From IMG/VR virus record IMGVR_UViG_3300045006_000068, positions 1-43,487 of that record: a DNA stretch of 43,487 nt, one strand, 5' to 3'. This stretch comes from a virus. Below the pieces are notes generated by a model, which saw nothing but the letters and a program-made list of their open reading frames with translations, did no database searches and was not told where the DNA came from. Shown piece after piece: positions 19,498-43,487 of this stretch. The position numbers and the translations under genes are program-made. Position 1 is the stretch's first letter; each line of letters begins with the position of its first letter.

Positions 19498-19814
19498 GTT
19501 TCCTCCATCGCCGCCAGCACGGCGTCAGCGTAGGCGACGGCCGAGTGGCCGGTTGCCTGGTAGGTGTCCCACAGATGCTCAATCGGGCGGGGCTCCCCGG
19601 GGCCCTGGTCCCAAGATGCAAGGGCTGGCGCCTTGCGGATCAGGGCCTCCATGGCGCATTTCGCCAGTTCCAGCCTCTCCGCCCGGGTTCCGTGGACAAT
19701 CGCAGAACCAGGGGGAGTCGGAAACTCGAAGCCACACTCCGGGCAACGGAGACTTCCGGCCTTCCCGTTCCAGGCAATGAACCCCTTGCAGTTGGGGCAA
19801 TGGGTCGACCTCAT
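19491..19814 (-). CDS. Zinc-ribbon protein, 107 residues
   Basis: The N-terminus has CPNCKG and CPECG pairs (residues 6-9 and 24-27), a classic rubredoxin-type zinc ribbon. A helical region follows (RAERLELAKCAMEALIRK; GHSAVAYADAVLAAM). It lies next to the methyltransferase gene and is coupled to it. A nucleic-acid or protein-binding adaptor role is possible but not shown. Confidence 0.6.
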   Translation of the reverse strand: MRSTHCPNCKGFIAWNGKAGSLRCPECGFEFPTPPGSAIVHGTRAERLELAKCAMEALIRKAPALASWDQGPGEPRPIEHLWDTYQATGHSAVAYADAVLAAMEETC

Positions 19815-21499
19815 TCGACTACCTCCCTGGTGCTGGAAATCATCAGCGGGATGGACTTCAGCTTGAAATTGCTCCCGAACTCGCTGTTCATGTCACTCGC
19901 ATCGAAGCCCATCTCTCGGGCGGCCTCATGGGGCGACTTTACCCATCCGTTCAGGCGCCCCGCCTCAACGTTCAGACGCCGCATAAACGTCTGGTCAAGA
20001 CGAACGTGGACGGTTCCCTTTTTGAACGCCCTCACATCCATGAAAAGGCGGCCGTCGACCATGCGGAACTCGTACAGACGGCCGGGCTCCCACTGAAGGT
20101 GCTGGCTGTTGGTCTCGATCTCGAAGCCCAGGTTCTCGGCGATGGTGCAGAGGTCCCCAAGGAGGTCGTGGATCAGGTGGTGGAGGCCGTTGGGGTACTC
20201 GTACTTGGAGAATCCGTCCGTGCAGAAGCACCGCCAGTGGTTCAACACCAGCCGATAGTCGAGGGTGTAGTGGGTGTGGCCCTGCTCCTTCCTGGCGTAT
20301 CGCCAGTCATCCGAGACCACTCGGGTGTTCGACTTGTAGTTCCGAATGTTCTCCTGGTTCGTGAGTTCCAGGTAGACCTCGAGGAGTTGCTGGTCAAAAT
20401 ACTGGTTCGCGTTCTTGATCGCCCAGATGACGACCGCGTAGGCGTTGTCGGCGGTGAAATCGATCGAGGTGTGGGCGGTGAGCTTTTCGAGGAGGGCCTT
20501 CCGGCTCTTTGAGGTCAGGCGGTCGGTGATGGTGGAGAGGTTGGCGAAGAGTTCCTTCCAATAGAGGTTCTTCAGCCCCTGGATCTTGGCCTTGAGGCCT
20601 TCCTTGACCTGGGGGAGGTTCACCCCGAGTTCCTTGAAAAGCTCCCGGTCCAGCTTCTCCAGGTCTCTGTAGATCCCCAACAGGCGCTCGAAGTCCGCAT
20701 GGTAGAGTTCTTCCAGGCGTTCGACGATGTTCTGTCCCTCGACCAGCGCATGGAGTTCCTGGGCCTGGGTGGTGGTTCGCCGATCGAACCTGGTTTCGTC
20801 GGTCTTGTCGGCCTGGATCTTGAACGTCGACTCGAACCAGATGTCAAAGGGGTCGATATTGAGCCGACCATCACGTCTTCCGTCGTTCCGAAACCGGATC
20901 TTCACGATGTCGACTTGGGCTCGAGCCCGACGGAATTCCGAGTCCTTGAAGGTGTCGGAACTGAGGACCTTCAACTCTCCCCAAACCCGGCTCCATTCCT
21001 TGTACTTCTTGGCCTCCTCCGGGTCTCCGATGCGACGGGTCACCACGTCCATCACGGCGCCGTTGTCCTTCCATCGCTGGGGCACCACCAGGTAGACCAC
21101 GCGGCAGTTGGCCTCCGAGACGATCTTCTGGACCCAGGTATCGAACTCGGAATAGGGAGGGTTGCAGAACACCACATCGACCTTCTTGTCGATGAGGGTC
21201 TGCTGGTGGAAATCGGTCCCCACCACGAACACGTCGGGAGGGAGGGTCTGGACGAGGGTCGCCGATTTCTCGATGGCGTACTTCTCGCCCTCGTTCCGGG
21301 TCAACTCGCACAGGGTCTTGAGGGCGTTCCCGTCCCCGGCGCCGATGTCCAGGATGGAGAAATGAGGGGCCCGGCCGTAGTCGTCGAACTCGACCCGGAG
21401 GTCAGCGGCCACGACCTCGAGCATCCGGCGGCTCGTAGGATACCACTCATGATCTTCGCCGGCCGCCTTGACCCGGTCGAGGAGTGCCAGATTACTCAC
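19811..21499 (-). CDS. SAM-dependent DNA methyltransferase with DUF4942 domain
   Basis: 562 residues. The SAM-binding motif DIGAGDGNAL is at 51-60 and the amino-methyltransferase motif NPPY at 113-116, typical of adenine-N6 enzymes. From about residue 240 the sequence matches the DUF4942 domain found fused to such methyltransferases in phages. The central part has a long helical region (ERLEELYHADFERLLGIYRD). A likely role is methylating phage DNA against host restriction. No companion nuclease is seen, so it is probably a solitary enzyme. Target sequence unknown. Confidence 0.8.
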   Translation of the reverse strand: MSNLALLDRVKAAGEDHEWYPTSRRMLEVVAADLRVEFDDYGRAPHFSILDIGAGDGNALKTLCELTRNEGEKYAIEKSATLVQTLPPDVFVVGTDFHQQTLIDKKVDVVFCNPPYSEFDTWVQKIVSEANCRVVYLVVPQRWKDNGAVMDVVTRRIGDPEEAKKYKEWSRVWGELKVLSSDTFKDSEFRRARAQVDIVKIRFRNDGRRDGRLNIDPFDIWFESTFKIQADKTDETRFDRRTTTQAQELHALVEGQNIVERLEELYHADFERLLGIYRDLEKLDRELFKELGVNLPQVKEGLKAKIQGLKNLYWKELFANLSTITDRLTSKSRKALLEKLTAHTSIDFTADNAYAVVIWAIKNANQYFDQQLLEVYLELTNQENIRNYKSNTRVVSDDWRYARKEQGHTHYTLDYRLVLNHWRCFCTDGFSKYEYPNGLHHLIHDLLGDLCTIAENLGFEIETNSQHLQWEPGRLYEFRMVDGRLFMDVRAFKKGTVHVRLDQTFMRRLNVEAGRLNGWVKSPHEAAREMGFDASDMNSEFGSNFKLKSIPLMISSTREVVE

Positions 21500-24332: not shown

Positions 24333-24424
24333 TCAAGTCCGAACGTCCTAACCCGCCGCCTTCCTCGACGAAGAAGGCGAACCGCCGAAGCGGCACACTA
24401 CCAGACCGGCCCACCCGGCTTGAT

Positions 24425-24498
24425 TGGAGGGGGAGGATTTGAACCTCCGACTTCCAGCAGAAGAGGCTGGCGACATAACCAGGCTAGTCCACCCTCCT
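24425..24498 (-). tRNA. tRNA-like gene, anticodon loop reads CTCTTCT (probably Lys-CTT)
   Basis: On the minus strand a cloverleaf can be drawn: acceptor GGAGGG with CCCTCC, D stem GAC/GTC, anticodon stem CCAGC/GCTGG with loop CTCTTCT, and T arm GGAGG-TTCAAAT-CCTCC. The strict reading gives anticodon CTT, but position 37 would be C instead of a purine, and the acceptor is effectively 6 bp with a terminal A-A mismatch. No CCA is encoded after the discriminator. The fold is convincing; the amino-acid identity is not. Confidence 0.7.
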
Positions 24499-24613
24499 AC
24501 GAAATTCCGACAGGTCAACCACTCGCCACCCATCCACCGGCAGGGCCACACCCGGGCGTTTGCACCGCCCACGTTCGCCCAGACAGCGGCCAAAGCCTTG
24601 TCCGTTGCGTCGG

Positions 24614-24639: not shown

Positions 24640-25383
24640 TCAGTGCATCAAGTCGTAGGCGCCATTCGACAGCTCGAAAAGCACTGTGTGGCGGACGAAC
24701 TTCTCGGTCGGAGCAAGCCCGAGGGCTTCGCATACCGCCCGCTTCTCGACGTTGTTCGGAAAAACGAAGGTGATGACGTTGTCGCTCACGTCGTTCCCGT
24801 GGGACTCGCCAGCCAGGTTCTTTTCCTTCTGCTCCGCCCGGTAGTCCGCCTTCGCCTGACGGAGCTTATCCATCTGCCTCATCTTCTCGAGTTCGTCCAC
24901 CTCTTCCCTGACCTGATCGTCCTTCCCAAAGGCAGTCATTTCGGCGTGGCCGGTGTCGGCGAACAGGAAGTCCAGGTCGACCTGGTCGAACCCCAGGTCT
25001 TCGGTGAACTTCAGGTCGGGAAAGTCGACATGAATCTGTACCAGGGCCTCGACGTCAAACTCCCCCTGTAGGCCGGTATTGTTCAGGGCGATGTTCGCCC
25101 GGACCTCCTCCTCGTCGGTCAGGTCGACCAGAGCAACGTTCAGTTCATAGTCGTCCTTTCGGATCAAGGCGTCCTGAGCTTTGAGCCGCTGATGCCCCCC
25201 AACGATGCGCCAGGTCCTCCGGTTCACGATGAGGGGCCCGAGGAGCCCCATATCCTTGATGAACTTTTGGAGCTTCTTGCGGGCCGTCTCGGTGATCTTG
25301 CGGGGGTTGTAGGGGGCTTCCTGGATTTGCCGCCGGTTCACCGTGGTCATGGTGAACTTCTCAAGAGGGTTCGGGGTACTCAA
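24640..25383 (-). CDS. ParB/Srx-fold protein, IbrB-like
   Basis: 247 residues from a TTG after AAAGG. The N-terminal ParB-like domain contains APYNPRKITETARKKLQKFI, then GPLIVNRRTWRIVGGHQRLK, the ParB GxxR-type box. The C-terminal half is charged and helical (EEVDELEKMRQMDKLRQAKA). In phages and plasmids a ParB-fold protein paired with a PAPS-reductase-like protein is the IbrB/IbrA arrangement. The biochemical role of that pair is not settled. The adjacent upstream gene supplies the IbrA-like partner. Confidence 0.72.
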   Translation of the reverse strand: MSTPNPLEKFTMTTVNRRQIQEAPYNPRKITETARKKLQKFIKDMGLLGPLIVNRRTWRIVGGHQRLKAQDALIRKDDYELNVALVDLTDEEEVRANIALNNTGLQGEFDVEALVQIHVDFPDLKFTEDLGFDQVDLDFLFADTGHAEMTAFGKDDQVREEVDELEKMRQMDKLRQAKADYRAEQKEKNLAGESHGNDVSDNVITFVFPNNVEKRAVCEALGLAPTEKFVRHTVLFELSNGAYDLMH

Positions 25384-25416
25384 TGGGTGTCCTTTCCGGC
25401 CGACCGGGCCGGGCGG

Positions 25417-26094
25417 TCAGTCGTAGAGCATTTCCAGCCGGAGCCGTTCCGCCGCCAGGCTGGGGTACTTCGCCACGATCCGGGCCCAATCGTCCGGGTA
25501 GTTGTTAATGATGAACCACAGTTCCTCACCCTTGAGCGTGGTGAAGTCCCGGATGCCGACCTCGTAGGTCTCGGGGAGCGGGAGTCGATGGTCCTCGATG
25601 TACTTGCGAACGTGGGCCTTTTTCCACTCGGCGATGGGGTACAGGTGCCGGTACTTGAAGTCCATCCCAAAAGACCCGGTGGAAATCCCCTTCTTGTCCT
25701 TGAGGGAAAGCTGGCCCCGCCGCTGAAGGCTGTCAGTCTTCATGAAGCCCCACGCCAGCCACGGGGTCTGGTAGGTGTCCCGCAGGTAGTTTTCCATCAT
25801 CGTCATCGTCACCGGCCGCCGCCGGGTGAACTGGGCCGACGGAACCAAATAGTCGACGTCTGGGTGAGGGTGCCGCCGGACAGACACCCCCCACCGTTGC
25901 TCGTAGTGCGAAATGATGCGGTCGACCCAGGTAAGACGGTCGACGTAGTACAGATGGACCGGAATCACTCGGTTAGGCCCAAAGGCCTTGACCATGATGT
26001 CCAGCATACAGACCGAGTCCTGACCCGTGGAGAACATCGCCACGACGGGCCCGGAGATTCGGCCCGCCATGGCGTTCACGTTCTCCAAGAGCAT
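25417..26094 (-). CDS. PAPS-reductase-fold protein, IbrA-like
   Basis: 225 residues with an N-type ATP-pyrophosphatase loop STGQDS at 22-27 (usually SGGxDS), and the rest of a phosphoadenosine-phosphosulfate reductase-like fold (VIPVHLYYVDRL; YPIAEWKKAHVRKYIEDHRL). It lacks the C-terminal redox Cys motif of true PAPS reductases. It precedes the ParB-like gene in transcription order, as in IbrAB pairs. It may activate a substrate by adenylation; the substrate is unknown. Confidence 0.75.
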   Translation of the reverse strand: MLLENVNAMAGRISGPVVAMFSTGQDSVCMLDIMVKAFGPNRVIPVHLYYVDRLTWVDRIISHYEQRWGVSVRRHPHPDVDYLVPSAQFTRRRPVTMTMMENYLRDTYQTPWLAWGFMKTDSLQRRGQLSLKDKKGISTGSFGMDFKYRHLYPIAEWKKAHVRKYIEDHRLPLPETYEVGIRDFTTLKGEELWFIINNYPDDWARIVAKYPSLAAERLRLEMLYD

Positions 26095-26097
26095 CTT

Positions 26098-26310
26098 TTA
26101 CCCCAACAGCCCCGCAACACTCCGGGAGGCGCCGGACCGGGACCGAGCCGACTTAAAGGCGGCCTTGCGTTCGCCTTTGGTAGCGCCCCGAGTTTTCAGA
26201 CCGCCGGTAGCGACCAGGGAGGCCTTCTTTCCGAACTTGCCTCCGTTTCCTTTCTTCACCTGCCGAGGCTGGGTTTGATCCCCAACCTGAAGCCCGAGCC
26301 TTCCGGCCAT
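26098..26310 (-). CDS. Small very basic protein, 70 residues
   Basis: Starts at an ATG after GGAGGT at 7 bases, so translation is likely. Composition is dominated by Lys, Arg, Gly and Ser, with no predicted membrane segment. It sits between the ASCH and IbrA-like genes. Its charge suggests nucleic-acid binding; no family is recognised. Confidence 0.6.
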   Translation of the reverse strand: MAGRLGLQVGDQTQPRQVKKGNGGKFGKKASLVATGGLKTRGATKGERKAAFKSARSRSGASRSVAGLLG

Positions 26311-26325
26311 GTTTGTACCTCCGGG

Positions 26326-26889
26326 TTACATGGTTTCCCGCCCGGCAAGGTCGGCATGGTCGAAATCCCACAGCCGGAGCTTGCCTTTGACGTACCTGAA
26401 GGGTACACGGAAGAGCCGAGCGTTTTTCAAATGCCAATGGTAGGCCGAATCGGGGTCGGCGAACGGATTGTCCGACGGACCTCCCGGGGTGACGGCCGCC
26501 AGGTCCACGACCCCAATGATCGACGAGGCGGTCCAGAAGTGGCCGCCACGCTGGGCCAGGACGTTTGTCCGGGAGCAGACCAGCCGCTCCCGTCGTTCCT
26601 GGTCGGTCAGCGAATCGGGGTCCGCCACGAAGGCGGCCTCATCCGCCTGGTCGATCTTGAAGTACCGAGAAGTCGAGTTGTCCAGCGTTCCCAGTTGCAC
26701 CTGGACGAACTCTTCGATTAGGCGGAGATGGGGGTAGTCGGTCAGGTCCGGCATCCCGCCAATGTCCTTCCCAGAGGCATGGATGAGGAGAGGCCCCCGG
26801 TAGTCGGTGGACCAGTCTCGATTTTCGACGGTCTTCAATCCCGTCGCTACCAGGTAGGCGAGGGGATTTTGAATGGACAGCGTTTTCAT
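26326..26889 (-). CDS. ASCH-domain protein
   Basis: 187 residues. The opening LSIQNPLAYLVATGLKTVENRDW and later GPLLIHASGKD match the ASCH fold, a PUA-related RNA-binding barrel. A helical insert sits between residues 55 and 115 and a second barrel part (SSIIGVVDLAAVTP; HWHLKNARLF) follows. ASCH proteins bind or process RNA or modified nucleosides. The neighbouring IbrA/IbrB-like genes suggest a shared function. Confidence 0.72.
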   Translation of the reverse strand: MKTLSIQNPLAYLVATGLKTVENRDWSTDYRGPLLIHASGKDIGGMPDLTDYPHLRLIEEFVQVQLGTLDNSTSRYFKIDQADEAAFVADPDSLTDQERRERLVCSRTNVLAQRGGHFWTASSIIGVVDLAAVTPGGPSDNPFADPDSAYHWHLKNARLFRVPFRYVKGKLRLWDFDHADLAGRETM

Positions 26890-32421: not shown

Positions 32422-32723
32422 TATAGCCCGAAATCCTTCCTTATTTCTTCAATCAGACCGGCGACAGCCCCGGCGAGGGCGGAGACCATCACTTCCCGAT
32501 CCCGGGCCAGATACTCCATGGCCGCCTGGGCTCCGTTCAGCTTCGCCCCGACTTTCTCATCAATGAGCCCCGCCTGGATCAGCACCACGGCCCCTTCCAG
32601 CATGTCCCCTATGGCCTCGGCCGCCACATTTGGGCCCGCATTCCCTCGGGGGGTTGCTTCCCGGAGGAGTAGCGTCACCGCCCGCGCCGCCCGGATTCGG
32701 CAGATGAGTTCACAATGGTTCAC
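32421..32723 (-). CDS. Hypothetical early protein, 100 residues
   Basis: A helical protein (MLEGAVVLIQAGLIDEKVGAK; VSALAGAVAGLIEEIRKDFG) without a family match. First operon of the leftward early region together with the ribbon-helix-helix gene, which it overlaps by 4 bp. Confidence 0.5.
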   Translation of the reverse strand: MNHCELICRIRAARAVTLLLREATPRGNAGPNVAAEAIGDMLEGAVVLIQAGLIDEKVGAKLNGAQAAMEYLARDREVMVSALAGAVAGLIEEIRKDFGL

Positions 32724-32875
32724 TGGTCCCCCTCGGGAAGTTTGGCACCCCGGGCCTTGAGAGCTTCGGTGAGCAAAATCCGAATCATAGCCGCCTGAGA
32801 CAGCCCCGCAGGCGCCCTCTGCTGATCCACCAAAGCGAGGATTTCTTCGGTGATGGTATAGGTTTTCATTTTCAT
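32720..32875 (-). CDS. Ribbon-helix-helix (Arc/MetJ-like) small protein
   Basis: 51 residues from the ATG at 32875, seven bases after AAGGGG. The beta strand MKTYTITEEILALVDQQ is followed by LSQAAMIRILLTEALK, the ribbon-helix-helix pattern. It is the first gene leftward of the control region and lies opposite the truncated repressor, the position of a Cro-type regulator. Confidence 0.6.
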   Translation of the reverse strand: MKMKTYTITEEILALVDQQRAPAGLSQAAMIRILLTEALKARGAKLPEGDQ

Positions 32876-33109
32876 GTTTGGCCCCTTGCGAGATTCATAC
32901 AACGAACATTATTTCCGTGCCAATATCTACCTATAAGATATTTGAAAAGTGACATTCTAGCACGGTATCTGCTTTCCATGCATCGATGGTGCACTATCTG
33001 AACTCACCCCGGCTCACTGGTCAATCTAAGTCGATCTTATATGGACAGGCGGATTAGTTTCGATGTACTTTGCAATGGATAGATACTAGAATATTACTGG
33101 GGGATTGAG
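32876..33109. promoter_or_regulatory. Divergent control region between leftward early genes and the truncated repressor
   Basis: 234 AT-rich bases. A perfect operator (AATATCT-N7-AGATATT) lies at 32922-32942, within the likely leftward promoter. A possible rightward promoter with TTCGAT (33059) and GATACT (33082) leads to the ATG at 33110. This is the immunity-region layout of temperate phages. The middle (32960-33050) has no further motif I can defend. Confidence 0.55.
32922..32942. promoter_or_regulatory. 21-bp operator, perfect copy
   Basis: AATATCT-ACCTATA-AGATATT, the best palindrome of the set, in the divergent control region. Confidence 0.72.
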
Positions 33110-33153
33110 ATGAGTGAGCGGCTGTATGAGATCGGAGAGCGAATGAAGTACGT
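33110..33153 (+). pseudogene. N-terminal remnant of a probable XRE-type repressor
   Basis: ATG after GGGGG at 6 bases; only about 14 codons (MSERLYEIGERMKYV) are left before the IS21 end. The pattern IGERMKYV is how many helix-turn-helix XRE repressors begin (before the LT-Q-ELA helix). It is plus strand, divergent from the leftward early operon, as a CI gene would be. The rest is absent from the window. The assignment rests on few residues and on position. Confidence 0.5.
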
Positions 33154-33205
33154 ATTCCTGGCAAATTTGCCACCCATTCCTGGGCATGGTTGCCACCCTG
33201 GGGCT
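33154..33205. repeat. Left terminal repeat of the IS21 element
   Basis: Contains CCTGGC-type and GGTTGCCACCCTGG blocks that match, inverted, the sequence at 36160-36211. Confidence 0.65.
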
Positions 33206-33250
33206 TGGGGTGTGCTCGTTAGTTGATTGTACTAGGGTGGCAAGTTTGCC

Positions 33251-33610
33251 TCAATAACCTCCTTGCTCGAGAGAGTCCGTCTGCGGAGGTTTTGGTGGTT
33301 CGATAAACCCATTGATGGGTTTTTTGGGCCGACCTCCTTTCTTGCCATTGAGTCGGGCCATGGCGGCTTTTTGCCCCCCGGACTGAGAACCACACAGGTA
33401 TCCGATCAAGGGCCCGATTTGGGTGATGGGGATCTTGGCTGACAGGAGTTCCACCTCCCATCCGCCATTGGGGTCCTGGGAGTTGAGGTAGTCGCAGGCG
33501 GCCTGGGCCACCTCTGGCCGGGCAACGACCTGCCAGTCGGTTTTCACGGTAGCATCGGCGACGAGCCGGTACACACAGACAGGGACGCTACCATCTTCAC
33601 GATCGTGCAT
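33251..33610 (-). CDS. Third ORF of the IS21 element, unknown function
   Basis: 119 residues overlapping the end of istB by 14 bp. A helical/beta N-terminus (VYRLVADATVKTDWQVVARPE) is followed by a Gly/Lys-rich, AT-hook-like run (GKKGGRPKKPINGF). IstB ends in the related KKPIDG, because both genes contain a copy of one palindrome. IS21 elements normally have only istA and istB, so this is a passenger or accessory gene. Confidence 0.55.
   Translation of the reverse strand: MHDREDGSVPVCVYRLVADATVKTDWQVVARPEVAQAACDYLNSQDPNGGWEVELLSAKIPITQIGPLIGYLCGSQSGGQKAAMARLNGKKGGRPKKPINGFIEPPKPPQTDSLEQGGY
33306..33325 (+). repeat. Palindrome with T run, copy 1
   Basis: AACCCAT-TG-ATGGGTT followed by further T residues on the plus strand, a rightward terminator-like hairpin inside the third ORF. 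It recurs with one base change at 33640-33659. Confidence 0.6.
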
Positions 33611-34397
33611 CGTTGGGTTCCTCCTGACGGGACATTAGTAACCCATCGATGGGTTTTTTGGGGACTGCCTCGACAGCCGCTTTGCGCCGGGAGTCACCCT
33701 TGAGGTCAAACCGGATGGCACGGTGGACCAGCCGATCACAGATGGCGTCGGCCACGGTGGGTTCTCCGATCCTCTCGAACCAGAGTGAGACCGGGACTTG
33801 GCTGGCGATGATCGTGGCCAGCTTCCCGGCCCGGTCCTCAACGATCTCGAAGAGGGCCAGCCGGTCCTCTGGTTCCAATACTTCCAAGCCGAAGTCATCG
33901 AGGATCAGGACTGGGGTCTTGGCCAGGCGGTCGATGAAGCGTTTGTAGGTTCCCTCCTTGCGGTGGCGACGGAGGGTGGGGAACAGCTTCCGGGCGTTGA
34001 AGTACCGGGTGGCATGCCCCATCAGGCAGGCTTGGAGCCCCAGGGCCTGGGCCAGGAAGCTCTTCCCGATTCCAGTTGGTCCGGTGATGATAAACACGTC
34101 GGCAGCGGTAACCCACCGGCAATCGGCATACGGGGCGACTGCGGCACGGTCCAGGCTTCGGCCGCCGGCGAACTCTAGTTCGGTGAGCGAGGAGGCTGTG
34201 TGGAAGCAGGCAGCCCGGATCAGACGGCTGGAGCGGCGTTCCCGTCGTTCGTCCCATTCGGCATCGACCAGTTGGGCCAGTAGTTCCGGGCCTTCCAGAC
34301 CGGGCAGGAGTCTGGTGTCCAACAGAGTTTGAAGGCTTCGTTCCATGCCGTGAAGCTTCAGGGCTCCCAGGCGTTCCAGGGTGGCATTGGTGTTCAT
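33597..34397 (-). CDS. istB: IstB ATPase, transposition helper
   Basis: 266 residues, AAA+ ATPase of the DnaC/IstB type. Walker A GPTGIGKS, Walker B VLILDDFGLE, and the N-terminal LGALKLHGMERSLQTLL typical of IstB. It assembles on target DNA and activates IstA. It starts 9 bases after istA ends. The C-terminal KKPIDG region carries the second palindrome. Confidence 0.92.
   Translation of the reverse strand: MNTNATLERLGALKLHGMERSLQTLLDTRLLPGLEGPELLAQLVDAEWDERRERRSSRLIRAACFHTASSLTELEFAGGRSLDRAAVAPYADCRWVTAADVFIITGPTGIGKSFLAQALGLQACLMGHATRYFNARKLFPTLRRHRKEGTYKRFIDRLAKTPVLILDDFGLEVLEPEDRLALFEIVEDRAGKLATIIASQVPVSLWFERIGEPTVADAICDRLVHRAIRFDLKGDSRRKAAVEAVPKKPIDGLLMSRQEEPNDARS
33640..33659 (+). repeat. 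Palindrome with T run, copy 2
   Basis: AACCCAT-CG-ATGGGTT plus T residues, near the 3' end of istB. It probably stops outside transcription entering the element from the left. Confidence 0.6.
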
Positions 34398-34406
34398 GAT
34401 GGTTCC

Positions 34407-35963
34407 TTATTGGTAGGCGGCTTGGCCGCGTAGGTTCTCGTGGACGGTGGTCACCGCCGCCGGGGGGAGGACGAGGATCTTGTCTTCATCCTGTTCCAGG
34501 ATGGTTTTGACGGCCCGATAGGAAGCTTCCTCTCGTTCCAGCGCGAGCAGACAGGCCCGGTTGAGCCGGGCACTCTCCCACTTGCGTCCCAGGCCGATGA
34601 GGCCCAGGCAGGCTTTGAAGCCGTGCTCGGGGTACTCATAACGGTCCATGATCCGCTGACAAACTTGGGCAACGGAGGATCCCAACTCCTTTGCCCAGTT
34701 CAAGATACGACCAGGTGACCACTCGGCCACAAACTGATGGTGGTCGGGCATGTGCTCCTTCTGGGTCGACCATCCCCGGGTATGGGAGCGCAAGTGGAAG
34801 GCCTGCCGGAGGTTGTCGTGGTAGACCTCGACGGTCCGGCTCGTCCAGACCACAGTGACCTCTTGGCCCAACAGGCGCCAGGGCACGCTGTAGTAGTGCT
34901 CCACCTCGCCCTCCTTGAGACGGATGTGGTAGGTGTTGGCAACCTTCTGGAGCTTGTACTGACGGTACTCGAAGACTGTGGCCGGTAAGGGCTTGAGCAC
35001 CGGCCGGTCGACGCTCTTCCAGAGCTCTTCCCGGCTGACCGCCATCCTCTGGAACTTGCGGGCATTGTGGGCATCCAGGAGCATCCAAAGGGCCTGGTTG
35101 AGCTCCTCGAGGCTGCGGAACTTCCGGTTCCGCAAAGGGGCGAACAATCGGGTATAGAGGATTCTGACGGCGCCTTCGACCAAGGATTTATCCTTGGGCT
35201 TGTAGGGCCGAGCCGGAAGGATGACCGTCCCATAGTGGTCGGCAAAGTCGGTGAAGGTCCGATTGTTCACCGGCTCGTACTTGCTGGCGGTGGTCACGGC
35301 TCCCTTGTAGGCATCGGGCACCAGCCCGGCGGGGACTCCGCCGAAGTGCTCGAAGGAATGGAGGCATCCGGTGATCCAGTGGCGTTGCTCCTGGCTGGGG
35401 AAGGCCTCGGCGTAGGTGTACTGGCTGGCCCCCAAAATCGAGACGAAGAACTGGGGATGGGTCTCGATGCCGGTCTTGGGATCGGTGATGCACAGCGGCA
35501 ACTTCCCGGCCCAGTCGAAGTAGGCCAGCTCCCCGGCACGGTGCTCAAAGTGCAGGCTGAGGTTGTCCGGCTGGGCACCCTTCCACACCTGGTAGTGATG
35601 GCAGAAGCGGCTGTAGGTGTACCCGTCGGGATTCTTCTGGCGGTACTCGTTCCAGAGCACCTCCCTGGTGACCCCGACCTTCTTCAGTTCCTGGGCCATC
35701 TCGGGGAAGTACTCCATCGCCGCCAACAACCGGGGATCGGAGGTCCGGCCTCCCATGGTCAGGGCCGACATGGCATCGGAGTCCGATAGTCCCTTCAGGG
35801 TCTCGAGAGTCAGGCCGCTGCTCTTCCAGTTGAGCAGATATTGGGCCACGGTAGGCCGACTGATTCCGGTGAGTTTGCTGATCTGCCGGTCGCTCAGACC
35901 GTTGGTCTGGCTGAGTTCAATGATTCGTCGAATCTGGTGCATTGGTGTCCTCGTTTGAGCCAT
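34407..35963 (-). CDS. istA: IstA transposase
   Basis: 518 residues from MAQTRTPMHQ (35963). The N-terminal helix-turn-helix is NGLSDRQISKLTGISRPTVAQYL. The DDE catalytic core has ELAYFDWAGKLP (first Asp), GLVPDAYKGAV (second Asp) and KDKSLVEGAVRIL (Glu). A beta-barrel and a basic C-terminal region follow. Full length, no stop or frameshift, so the element may be active. Confidence 0.92.
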   Translation of the reverse strand: MAQTRTPMHQIRRIIELSQTNGLSDRQISKLTGISRPTVAQYLLNWKSSGLTLETLKGLSDSDAMSALTMGGRTSDPRLLAAMEYFPEMAQELKKVGVTREVLWNEYRQKNPDGYTYSRFCHHYQVWKGAQPDNLSLHFEHRAGELAYFDWAGKLPLCITDPKTGIETHPQFFVSILGASQYTYAEAFPSQEQRHWITGCLHSFEHFGGVPAGLVPDAYKGAVTTASKYEPVNNRTFTDFADHYGTVILPARPYKPKDKSLVEGAVRILYTRLFAPLRNRKFRSLEELNQALWMLLDAHNARKFQRMAVSREELWKSVDRPVLKPLPATVFEYRQYKLQKVANTYHIRLKEGEVEHYYSVPWRLLGQEVTVVWTSRTVEVYHDNLRQAFHLRSHTRGWSTQKEHMPDHHQFVAEWSPGRILNWAKELGSSVAQVCQRIMDRYEYPEHGFKACLGLIGLGRKWESARLNRACLLALEREEASYRAVKTILEQDEDKILVLPPAAVTTVHENLRGQAAYQ

Positions 35964-36159
35964 CCGCCCCCTCCTTGGGAGCCGACAGCATAGTTTGAGG
36001 AGCACACCGTTCAAAGCCCAGGAATTTTGACCAGAAATCGGGCTCCCAACGGGGCCTAATTCCTGGTCCGGTATGACCGTTCCTGCGGATGCCTGCCGGG
36101 TATTCCTGCCAATACGCCAAAAGTGGCAACCTTGGCCAGGAATTCTCCCGTCTCAGACC

Positions 36160-36211
36160 CCGCCAGGGTGGCAACCTTCGTCAGGAACGGGTGGCAGGCA
36201 TCGCCAGGAAT
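36160..36211. repeat. Right terminal repeat of the IS21 element
   Basis: Inverted partner of 33154-33205, with another internal partial copy near 36120-36150 (GGCAACCTTGGCCAGGAAT). Confidence 0.65.
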
Positions 36212-36910
36212 CTACACGTGAACCCGATCCCGTCCATGATGCCGTTCGCGGTGCGTCATCGGGAGCGGCAGGACTTCCGACCCGCCGAGGTCAGGCGGCT
36301 CTTGGACCGATCGACGATCCCGACAATCTGGGCGGACCCAACGGCTAGACAGGCCATCTACCGGGACGGATGGAGGCTCTACTCCATGAGCCTGCTACTC
36401 GCGGTCACTGGGGCACGGTGGAGCGCCGTTGCCGCCCTGGAGTCCGGAGACATCACCCAGGAGGCCGGGTACTACGTGGTGCGTCTGGACAAGGCCCTCG
36501 CCGAGATCCGGGGAGTCAAGCCGGGCACGAAGACGGGAAGGGGGACCCTAGTCCCGGTAGCGCGGGAGGTTCTCGACCAGGTCCTGCCGCATCTTCCGGA
36601 GTCTGGACCGCTGTTCCCGTCCTTCGGCCGACGGCACGGCCACCTTACCCACCACACAGCGATCAAGCACCTCAAGGCCGCGATGATCCGGGCCGGAATC
36701 AGTGAAAGGGCCCAGCGGGAACGTCTCCTGGGCTTCCACTCTTGGAAGCACACGTTCGTGACTAGGGCCCGGGCGGCTGGGCTGTCGGCCGAAGTCCGGA
36801 GCGCCTTTACGGAGCACCGGGACGAGCGAACCGCGGGGATCTACACCCACCTGGCGCCGATCGACCTGCTGGACGCTCTGCCGGTACAGAGGGCGATGCT
36901 CGGGGCCTAG
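36212..36910 (+). pseudogene. Tyrosine recombinase (integrase) fragment, catalytic domain only
   Basis: The plus-strand frame continues out of the IS end into VRHRERQDFRPAEVRRLLDR and a recombinase catalytic domain. Arg I is in TGARWSAVAALESGDI, the beta-hairpin Lys in KTGRGTLVPV, the box II His in HSWKHTF, a His in EHRDERTAG and the Tyr in IYTHL. Box II has Lys where Arg II (HxxR) is expected. The N-terminal core-binding and arm domains are missing, replaced by the IS21 end. About 232 residues could still be made from ATG at 36235, but activity is unlikely. Confidence 0.75.
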
Positions 36911-36975: not shown

Positions 36976-37566
36976 TCACTCGGTCGGCGGTTGCTTGCGT
37001 GGTCGGCCTGGCTTGACGTGGTCCTCCGGTGGTTCCTTGCCCATTTTTCGGTAGTATTTCGACCTTTTTTGCACCCTCTGGCGCTCCAGTCTGATTTGCT
37101 CCGAGCACCCTGGACAATGGAGTTGGGACGACCCAGTTACGGTAAACTCTTTTCCGCATCGCTGACACTTGTCCAAGGACCCCCAAGGTCTTCCACCGCC
37201 CTTGATTGTCGCCCGCTTTTGCGCCTGCCTATGCTGTCTACGGACCTTCTCGATATTTTCGGCAATCCACTTCGGGGCTATTTTTCTCTGCAATTCCAAC
37301 GCCTTCTCGGATTCGTTGATGGGTTGACAGCCCCGGCAAAAACGTTGGGATGCCGATTCCACGAGGAAGCCCTCCCCGCACCGCTCGCAATGATCGACGG
37401 ACCCCAACGGGCGCTCTTCGTGTCGCCGTTTCCGCTCTTGATAGCGGAGGGCTCTTTCGAGGACAACGATCGGTTTGCAGGCTGTGCACCATTTGGCACG
37501 GGGTCCCTTTGAGTCGAACTGAGCCCCGCACCTGTGGCAAGTACGTTGGTAACGGTGTGCCGACAC
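36976..37566 (-). CDS. Multi zinc-ribbon protein
   Basis: 196 residues from a GTG. Three similar zinc-ribbon units: CHRCGAQF...WCTAC (10-30), CERCGEGF...FCRGC (60-80) and CQRCGKEF...HCPGC (132-154), joined by basic helical linkers. The internal repeats suggest duplication. The protein probably binds nucleic acid. It is the last gene of the short operon before the integrase remnant. Bases 36911-36975 hold nothing I can identify, though this is a natural place for attP. Confidence 0.6.
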   Translation of the reverse strand: MSAHRYQRTCHRCGAQFDSKGPRAKWCTACKPIVVLERALRYQERKRRHEERPLGSVDHCERCGEGFLVESASQRFCRGCQPINESEKALELQRKIAPKWIAENIEKVRRQHRQAQKRATIKGGGRPWGSLDKCQRCGKEFTVTGSSQLHCPGCSEQIRLERQRVQKRSKYYRKMGKEPPEDHVKPGRPRKQPPTE

Positions 37567-40626: not shown

Positions 40627-43487
40627 TTATGTGTACCAGCGGCCAACGGCTCGCCATGTTACTGTAACCGCATCTGACGTATATCCTGATAAGTTATACG
40701 GATAAAAGTGGAAGTTGCTTGCATTCTTCGCCAATGTAAAAAAAAGTACATTGCAGGAACCGTAAACTATCGGTTGATAATCTACGTGGTAAGTTCCGAC
40801 AAAGATTGCATCAGGATCGAATGTAACCTGTACATCCTGACCAAGTGTCCCCGATGCAGATCCCCACATTTCCATATTGCCATTGGCGTACTTTGTCCAA
40901 TAGCCGACGACGGTCTGCCCATTATAGATTTTGCCAGTTTTGTAAATCCCATTTGTAACTGGATATGTCACTCCAGTCGAATCAGTTGACCCAGGAAGGT
41001 AAATCTCTTGTACTGGATTAGTGGGGACACCAAGCTCGCGCACATCTCCAAGAGAGCCATCAATATGGGCGATACCAGTAACATCATTGAGATAAATGGA
41101 CTTTCCAACGAGAGCCTCCCCGCCAGCTCCACCGACATCTATGACCACTGTCGATAGCGGATTGACGTAGAAAAATGAGCCGATGTGTGCCCATGATTTG
41201 CGGTTTATCCTAACGATCCCATCCCAGCTTACTGTGAATGAGTAGAGAAGCCAGTGCGTACCGTAGGGATCTCCCCACGTGGCACCACCGTCGCAGGTGT
41301 ATGTTCCCACCGGTAGAGCGGCGACAATCGCTGCCCGAAGTGCTTCCGCTGTGGCGGGGATACCTCCATAGACATCCCCATAGAACCGTCCTGCCACGAT
41401 ATTCCCAAGATTGCCGTAAGCCCCTTGCAGCTCGCCCTTGAAGTATCCATTGTTAGCCTTGACCGTCCCTGTGACTTCAAGCTCTCTAGCCTTCATAGAG
41501 TCAAAAAAAGCCTGGCTACCAACCAACTCCTGGACATCAATATGAGAGGACGATAGCGACTGCGCCTCTACGTGGGTACCATTGATCGCCTCAGCCTCGA
41601 TTTGATCGGCGATTATTTTACCACCACCCAAGTGCCTCAATGCTGGTCTATAGATCCGCCAAAATGGATTGCCAACGATGGCGTTGAAACCAGTCCGAAT
41701 CTCACACCCAATATCACCAGCGGCCAACCGTAGCGCAAAGCATTGCTGACCACGGGGAGACGGCAGATCGCTGGCCAGCGCGTTGGAACCAAGGATGTAG
41801 CCTGTGCAGTATGTCCGTATCCCCTTGAAGTCGTAAAGGAAATAAGCATTTGTATCGACGCCATTAGGACTCCACCTGCCCCCGGAGTACCAGAATCGGG
41901 TGAACGACTGGCCCCGTGACAGTCCTAGATATAGACCCGACCCTCCAATGAAATTGACCACTTCGATCTCGAACGAAAACTCCAGAATGTCGTATGGACC
42001 AACCGCAAACCACGACGAGAGGAAGTCATCTGCCGTTTGTAAAGCACGGTCAGCTCCAGAGGTATAGAGGGACAGAGTTCCGCCGTCCCACCCGGTCAGT
42101 CCGTCATCAGGTCTAGACAGGTCATTGATCAGTCGTCTCGCCCGAACGTCAAGGTTTTCGGTGGTAATTGCCCTGGATGCGACCTTTCCGGCCGAGACAG
42201 CCCCAGCCAAAATTTTGTCGGCAGACACAGCTCCATCTTCGATCATGACTGAGCCGACCAGCTCTTCTAGCTTGACGCCCTGGGCGTATTGCGTACCCCC
42301 GTTCCCAGTCCATGCGAGGATGACAACGATTCGACAGACCACGGCCCCGTCGGGCACATCGACGACCATGGCCCGTTGCTCCCACGTGGGACCGGCCTCG
42401 GCCCCATTCCCGGGGGCCTCGCTCACGGAGATGTTTTGTCCGACTGCGTTGTACCAGTAGATCCTGAGGTATGTTCCACCGGACCCAGACGCCGAATTGT
42501 ATCGAGTGACCCAGGCAGAGGCCCTGAGCTTTTGACCTGGGTAGACCGGGATCTCCTGGGAGGCGATGTGGCACCCGGTTGAGGCCAGTGCGGTCCTGCC
42601 CTCCTTGGGGTAGGCAGACATATCCGCAACCCAGAAGGCCTGGGATTGTCCGGCGTCCGTCCCCCAGTTGAACCACGCGGTCACGTCGGTACAGTTAGGG
42701 TCGGAGTTGAGGCACCGGGATCGCCCAGGAACCTTGAGCTTGTCCGTGGTGATCGCCCCGGCCTGTACCTTGTCGGCGGTCACAGCGTTAGCGTCGAGCT
42801 TCGAGGTAGTGACCGCTCCAGCCGCCAGCTCGTTTGCAGTCACCGACGCGGCCACCAGTTCCGACCCAACAAGCATTTTTCCGTAGCTGACGCCCCATAC
42901 GCCGCCCCCATCGCTATACATGGCGGCGGATAGCTTCATGTTTTTGCCGGGGAGATACGTCTGATAGACTAGTGCACCATTGAGATAGTACCGGATATAG
43001 ATGTTGTCATAGGTAATCCACACCTTGTCGGTGGACCCGATGGCCGGGCCAGTCCACTTGGAGATGCCGCTTTCGACGACCACGGCTAGCCCGTTACCTC
43101 GGTACCAGTAGTACGCATCGGTGTAGGACGCCGAGTCTTGGCGGGGGGCCTCAGAGAGGCCCATCCAGATGCTATCTGAACCTGATTCAAACTGGAACTT
43201 GAGCGAGACGGAATCGTACCCTTCGACAGATGAGACGGTGTTCTGCCAGCCGTTGCCCCCCGAGGTTTTACGGAACGTGGTGGCGTTGATCTGGACCACG
43301 CCTCCCGAGAAAACAGGGGTCCACGAGCCTGGTCCACGAGGACCGACGTCGCCCTGAGGACCGGTTGCCCCAGTAGGTCCGACGGGGCCCGTCTGGCCGG
43401 TCTGTCCGGTGTCACCCTTGCCGCCAGCGGGGACGTATGTTAGGCGGGACAGGGCCGCCCCCTGGATCCGCAGGTCCCAATACCCCG
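40627..43487 (-). CDS. Tail-tip/fibre protein, C-terminal ~950 residues (same protein as at 1-4699)
   Basis: The frame is open from base 43487 (GYWDLRIQGAALSRLTY) to the stop at 40627. It begins with the end of the repeated lectin-like module and a Gly-X-Y linker, then a diverged third module (SVSLKFQFESGSDSIWMG; WITYDNIYIRYYLNGALV). J-type repeats follow (TANELAAGAVTTSKLDANAV; SADKILAGAVSAGK), with two carbohydrate-binding-like regions and the KARELEVTGTVKANNGYFKG segment. The last 200 residues (to AVGRWYT) are probably the receptor-binding tip and are more AT-rich. The start seen at 43299 is not real; the frame continues upstream. Confidence 0.85.
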   Translation of the reverse strand, partial: GYWDLRIQGAALSRLTYVPAGGKGDTGQTGQTGPVGPTGATGPQGDVGPRGPGSWTPVFSGGVVQINATTFRKTSGGNGWQNTVSSVEGYDSVSLKFQFESGSDSIWMGLSEAPRQDSASYTDAYYWYRGNGLAVVVESGISKWTGPAIGSTDKVWITYDNIYIRYYLNGALVYQTYLPGKNMKLSAAMYSDGGGVWGVSYGKMLVGSELVAASVTANELAAGAVTTSKLDANAVTADKVQAGAITTDKLKVPGRSRCLNSDPNCTDVTAWFNWGTDAGQSQAFWVADMSAYPKEGRTALASTGCHIASQEIPVYPGQKLRASAWVTRYNSASGSGGTYLRIYWYNAVGQNISVSEAPGNGAEAGPTWEQRAMVVDVPDGAVVCRIVVILAWTGNGGTQYAQGVKLEELVGSVMIEDGAVSADKILAGAVSAGKVASRAITTENLDVRARRLINDLSRPDDGLTGWDGGTLSLYTSGADRALQTADDFLSSWFAVGPYDILEFSFEIEVVNFIGGSGLYLGLSRGQSFTRFWYSGGRWSPNGVDTNAYFLYDFKGIRTYCTGYILGSNALASDLPSPRGQQCFALRLAAGDIGCEIRTGFNAIVGNPFWRIYRPALRHLGGGKIIADQIEAEAINGTHVEAQSLSSSHIDVQELVGSQAFFDSMKARELEVTGTVKANNGYFKGELQGAYGNLGNIVAGRFYGDVYGGIPATAEALRAAIVAALPVGTYTCDGGATWGDPYGTHWLLYSFTVSWDGIVRINRKSWAHIGSFFYVNPLSTVVIDVGGAGGEALVGKSIYLNDVTGIAHIDGSLGDVRELGVPTNPVQEIYLPGSTDSTGVTYPVTNGIYKTGKIYNGQTVVGYWTKYANGNMEMWGSASGTLGQDVQVTFDPDAIFVGTYHVDYQPIVYGSCNVLFFTLAKNASNFHFYPYNLSGYTSDAVTVTWRAVGRWYT
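43387..43487. repeat. Copy of 767-867 at the contig edge
   Basis: Identical over 101 bases to 767-867. Together with 1-127 it frames a second repeat copy whose central 252 bp are missing. Confidence 0.9.

Follow-up and report, generated by a model that had tools for sequence, protein, structure and literature searches.

An intact IS21-family element sits at a broken integrase gene in a tailed phage genome

The viral contig studied here (IMG/VR record IMGVR_UViG_3300045006_000068), called the window in its full length of 43487 bases, carries an insertion sequence (IS) of the IS21 family that is real and has intact istA and istB genes. It lies between a short gene start and the catalytic part of a tyrosine integrase (Table 1). 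Our data support that the IS broke the integrase, whichever insertion route it took, and loss of the ability to integrate is well supported. In our best reading, which we favor with moderate confidence, a deletion adjoining the IS also destroyed a repressor. The phage can probably no longer establish itself quietly in a host. Here we infer three things: the repressor origin of the 13 codons left of the IS, the occurrence of a deletion and the inability to lysogenise.

Table 1. Positions of the IS, its genes and the neighbouring phage fragments in the window.
Feature	Position	Strand	Basis and remarks
IS21-family insertion sequence	33149-36216 (3068 bp)	-	istA side at right; ends set from comparison with 13 related elements
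istA, DDE transposase, 535 amino acids	34407-36014	-	open, apparently intact; NCBIfam NF033546, 249.9 bits (cut-off 160)
istB, AAA+ helper ATPase, 266 amino acids	33597-34397	-	open; Pfam PF01695, 8.4e-51; NCBIfam NF038214, 207.4 bits (cut-off 200)
Third open frame within the IS, 119 codons, possible passenger gene	33251-33610	-	sequence
Gene start, 13 codons (MSERLYEIGERMK), probably of a Cro/C1-type repressor, alternatively an integrase start	33110-33148	+	sequence
Tyrosine integrase, catalytic domain only, box II HxxK	36217-36910 (phage bases from 36217, stop at 36910)	+	Pfam, PHROG_1, alignment
Small ribbon-helix-helix protein, 60 codons, divergent from the start at 33110, possible Cro-like partner	32720-32902	-	Pfam RHH_1

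The transposase and helper genes adjoin on one strand, as in the IS21 family, and the element is bounded by terminal inverted repeats with repeated inner motifs and terminal bases of the TG type, one end being TA. An earlier note, made from the sequence alone, had placed an IS21 element here, and the NCBIfam scores above cut-off together with the canonical ends confirm it. IstA contains the motifs YFDWAG, VPDAYK and KDKSLVEG, which we take to hold its DDE residues, and motifs that are presumably Walker boxes are present in the istA/istB pair. IstA shares no more than 41.6% identity with the listed plasmid relatives, and 38.1% with its best relative from a phage; no close IstA relative was confirmed in viral contigs or genome contigs. 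IS21 relatives from Myroides, Mucilaginibacter, Spirosoma, Runella, Marinobacter and the Acidithiobacillus phage AcaML1, to which IstA of the window is 38-42% identical, share the istA/istB order, the repeated terminal motifs and TG-type ends. The window element differs from them in the distance from istB to the end (448 bp, compared with 85-206 bp in 8 relatives), in its third frame and in a 5'-TA end on the istB side, which two other elements (L040 and L069) also have. The roughly 350 extra bases between istB and the end hold the 119-codon frame, for which Pfam, PHROG and NCBIfam scans gave no family match. The peptide PKKPI(D/N)G is common to this frame and IstB, near the ends of both, and two near-identical 23-base palindromic repeats, each followed by a run of T, lie 334 bases apart at 33306-33328 and 33640-33662.

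The IS ends were compared by a script over 13 related elements, fetched for the purpose, and end pairs were chosen by eye among the top four candidates per element. Exact duplications of 5-7 bp flank TG- or TA-type ends in 8 of the 13 (L038, L039, L040, L069, L070, L071, L073 and L074), a generous count, since duplications and the ATTC motif raised the score of an end; in two of these 8 the duplication is 7 bp long. A terminal layout of two end bases, three free bases and ATT is found at both ends in six of the 8. The same layout is present at both window ends, with TGTAGATTCC on the istA side (right, read inward) and TACGTATTCC on the istB side (left), so that TG or TA plus three bases stands ahead of ATTCC as in the relatives. 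Repeated terminal motifs follow at 33160-33198 and 36123-36210. The istB-side end (33149-33158) starts with 5'-TA and not with 5'-TG; because L040 and L069, which share this feature, are flanked by exact 5-bp duplications, TA ends seem to be tolerated in this IS21 branch. Numerous IS21 members are described as making 5-bp direct repeats in the relevant passage of PMC11208146, and each IS21 end as holding two direct repeats in that of PMC10122671. At the strict ends of the window element, with the flanks GAATGAAG and CGTGAACC, we found no exact target duplication of 4-8 bp. The earlier note had reported none; this holds for exact matches at the strict ends, and we add to it a partial match, TGAA. 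A missing duplication is a matter of the insertion event and not of the identity of the element, and the IS21 assignment therefore stands. The lack of a duplication is consistent with a deletion beside the IS or with recombination of two IS copies.

To the right of the IS the phage sequence resumes at V-N-P, corresponding to the linker ahead of the integrase catalytic domain. Pfam PF00589 matches integrase positions 20-169, above its cut-off, and PHROG_1 is matched at 250-443 of 611. This is the single PF00589 match in the window, which also holds no serine recombinase or resolvase. PF14659, one N-terminal integrase domain, is absent from the window; the same search was positive in 7 of 14 control genomes. 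Of the two parts of a tyrosine integrase, the N-terminal DNA-binding half and the catalytic domain, only the second is present. Box II reads HSWKHTF (HxxK), where a functional enzyme has its catalytic Arg (HxxR). The integrase gave no match in the PDB at E 0.1, and with the window sequence as query no close relatives were found in viral contigs. Relatives were instead gathered from an alignment with Aeromonas and Yersinia phage integrases, with a main search pattern that permitted only Arg or Lys at the box II site. The resulting set of 123 (69 loci in genome contigs and 54 in viral contigs) includes several near-copies, such as L147-L154, and all members are distant, with 22-48% identity over the matched part. 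Every one of them has Arg where the window has Lys, as do all five of a first relative set. In box III, a Gly precedes the His in 108 of the 123, and the window has Glu at this place (Thr-Glu-His in contrast to the usual Gly-His). The 5' end is closed in 113 of the relatives, and in 107 of these the part ahead of the point where the window fragment starts is 77 residues or longer (median 165 over all 113); the six short ones mostly look like late-starting alignments or broken frames. Thus, both the missing N-terminal half, visible in the domain extents, the absence of PF14659 and the lengths of the relatives, and the Lys for Arg in box II had been described correctly in the earlier note.

The left fragment is harder to name. 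A G-rich stretch, possibly a ribosome-binding site, precedes its ATG at 33110. The 38-codon frame that contains the 13 codons has no Pfam match. Its IGERMK resembles the beginnings of Cro/C1-type proteins. The viral contig L009, which has Erf in common with the window, encodes a repressor with HTH_3 and S24 domains that carries LGQRIR near its start, and a Cro-like protein that carries IGERVK near its own; this IGERVK/GERVK aligns at HTH_19 position 1. Furthermore, in the Yersinia phage vB_YenM_42.18, the best phage match of the integrase, a repressor is followed by the integrase on one strand at a distance of 39 bp. The likeness to the L009 proteins and this gene order make a repressor identity likely, and the left fragment is likely a repressor start, judged by a peptide of 13 residues that cannot prove it. 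The pattern LYEIGERMK had no matches in viral contigs, and a strict pattern for gene starts like IGERMK found none in 7203 frames. A looser pattern matched 41 of 8073 frames, of which two, both in L009, were judged to be real helix-turn-helix proteins; the matches tested were these two and the Yersinia phage repressor. We found no S24 peptidase in the window and no HTH_3 outside IstA. The small divergent protein matches RHH_1 weakly (E 0.0039, 17.5 bits, below the cut-off of 20.5), and hence another kind of repressor may exist. The earlier note had counted about 14 repressor codons left of the IS: a gene start indeed adjoins it, with 13 codons, and its repressor identity was not confirmed. The persistence of the putative operators is not supported. 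For the region 32903-33109, 200 dinucleotide shuffles were made: 174 of them equalled or beat its best inverted repeat, and 24 did so for the count of such repeats. A 9-base motif chosen by eye as operator occurred 4 times with 2.36 expected, which is not above chance.

Taken as a sequence of events, a temperate tailed phage would have had a rightward lysogeny operon, with the repressor start and then the integrase, divergent from leftward lytic genes. An IS21-family element would have entered this operon, followed by an adjacent deletion, either by one-ended intramolecular transposition or by recombination between two IS copies. The deletion would have removed everything of the repressor beyond its start, together with the DNA-binding N-terminal half of the integrase, and a single IS lacking a target duplication would have stayed behind. 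An adjacent deletion had been proposed before; it is plausible, given exact duplications in 8 of 13 related elements and none here, and a simple insertion into one reading frame remains beside it. Likewise, the claim that the lysogeny module was destroyed stands for the integrase and is likely for the repressor.

Several observations weigh against a deletion that removed a repressor. Thirteen codons are too few to identify one. The searches yielded no close relative in which the locus is intact. Five of the 13 related elements (L036, L037, L068, L072 and L075) likewise gave no clear duplication by our method; L037 has good ends, and four of its five flank bases match (GCCCG, ACCCG). Moreover, the two window flanks have TGAA in common in a 7-bp register (AATGAAG and CGTGAAC, four of seven bases), and joining them through TGAA produces one uninterrupted reading frame, 241 codons long and starting MSERLYEIGERMNPIPSMM. 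The main rival, which we consider unlikely and still the strongest of the alternatives, builds on this agreement. It holds that the IS inserted simply into one short integrase gene of 241 codons without an N-terminal DNA-binding domain, with no repressor hit and no deletion. The target duplication would have been 7 bp long, a length also seen in two relatives, and its two copies would now agree only in TGAA. In random flank pairs from the phage, four bases agree in register at some length of 5-8 in 5.9% of cases (1.7% for length 7); if any shift within two bases is allowed, 10.5% of pairs agree over four bases. The frame contributes a further factor of one third, so that agreement and frame together are expected by chance in about 2-3.5%, and this low value keeps a simple insertion alive. 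However, the duplication is matched at just four of seven positions, and the left fragment resembles a Cro/C1 start. Nearly all relatives with a closed 5' end have a substantial stretch ahead of the catalytic part, and the in-frame stop at 33080-33082, upstream of the ATG, rules out a longer integrase reading through 33110.

It is improbable that the integrase was already decaying, with the lysogeny module gone, and that the IS arrived afterwards, in DNA free of selection. The Lys in box II and the Glu in box III would suit such a history. On the contrary, the frame of 228 residues is still open and its PF00589 match lies above cut-off, so that decay is not far advanced, and the order of events is not readable from one genome. 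Least probable is an assembly chimera or a minority variant beside a main population with an intact lysogeny module, its IS junctions built from mixed reads: the viral contig comes without reads to hand and its end also branches, but both junctions have the complete canonical IS ends that transposition gives, and the agreement in G+C between IS (0.609) and phage (0.614) we count as neutral.

None of 15 viral records sharing the Erf or the methyltransferase-like gene with the window gave an integrase match, in a search without positive control. PF00589 was found in 4 of 19 records sharing the terminase (19 of 37 terminase loci). In the nearest of these, G017 (terminase 58%), the genes in common with the window are all structural, and its integrase neighborhood is consequently uninformative here. 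For the portal protein, viral contigs gave one weak relative.

Events of this kind are already known, and the window case is an ordinary accident and no new kind of system. IS in wild phages are uncommon, with one each in eight of 284 phage genomes according to PMC3091744. A lactobacillus phage with the element ISL1 is reportedly a further case. Among wild phages, Burkholderia phage KS5 with ISBmu23 is like the window in carrying one IS, whereas the window IS sits at a broken integrase. Mycobacteriophage D29, a natural lytic derivative of a temperate phage, became lytic through deletion of the 5' end of its repressor, and the passage on it mentions no IS (PMC6550527); in the window, by comparison, the certain loss is that of the integrase. 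For Erwinia and Pseudomonas prophages, PMC10689766 reports 79 predictions that contain structural as well as IS genes; two of them were active, both being prediction artefacts. There, IS go together with lost prophage function in integrated and inactive elements, in contrast to the window, at whose ends we recognised no host DNA and whose structural genes look intact. It is possible, and we suggest it tentatively, that a wild, freely replicating phage population was caught after an IS21-driven deletion had made a temperate phage lytic, with the IS now a passenger of the virion and the divergent promoter region kept. If true, this would be one more natural example of an IS ending the temperate lifestyle of a phage, and an example of a phage moving a complete IS21 element between hosts. 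The value lies in a documented case and in a caution, since phages called temperate by an integrase match may hold only a dead integrase.

The form of the genome bears on this. The window has genes for terminase, portal, scaffold, tape measure and tail. The last 101 bases (43387-43487) are identical to 767-867, within a long tail protein that has a collagen-like stretch. By frame arithmetic, the frame of this protein would run on across the join at the repeat, and a join at the outer ends is also in frame. The contig ends thus give two different continuations of the long tail protein. The repeat may stem from a circular genome that has a variant branch, or else from a tail-fibre module that occurs more than once. 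We recognised no host genes at the window ends. Together with the end repeat, this is consistent with a phage genome that is circular or circularly permuted and has a branch of 766 bases. The form with the IS is thus probably present as free phage DNA, and a stretch missing from the record could hold other genes.

Several other genes of the window deserve mention. A 562-codon protein (19811-21499) with a methyltransferase-like start and a DUF4942 end is 63% identical to one in the viral contig L028, the top identity to any viral contig seen for the window. A tRNA-Lys (ctt) gene lies at 24422-24499, distant from the integrase. At 36976-37566, a 196-codon protein has several repeated zinc-ribbon-like Cys motifs, with weak family matches only. 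Finally, ParB-like, PAPS-reductase-like and ASCH-domain genes adjoin at 24640-26889, and the same order recurs in a viral contig (G001, locus L042) at 32-38% identity. This arrangement suggests genes that work together, perhaps in nucleotide or DNA modification.
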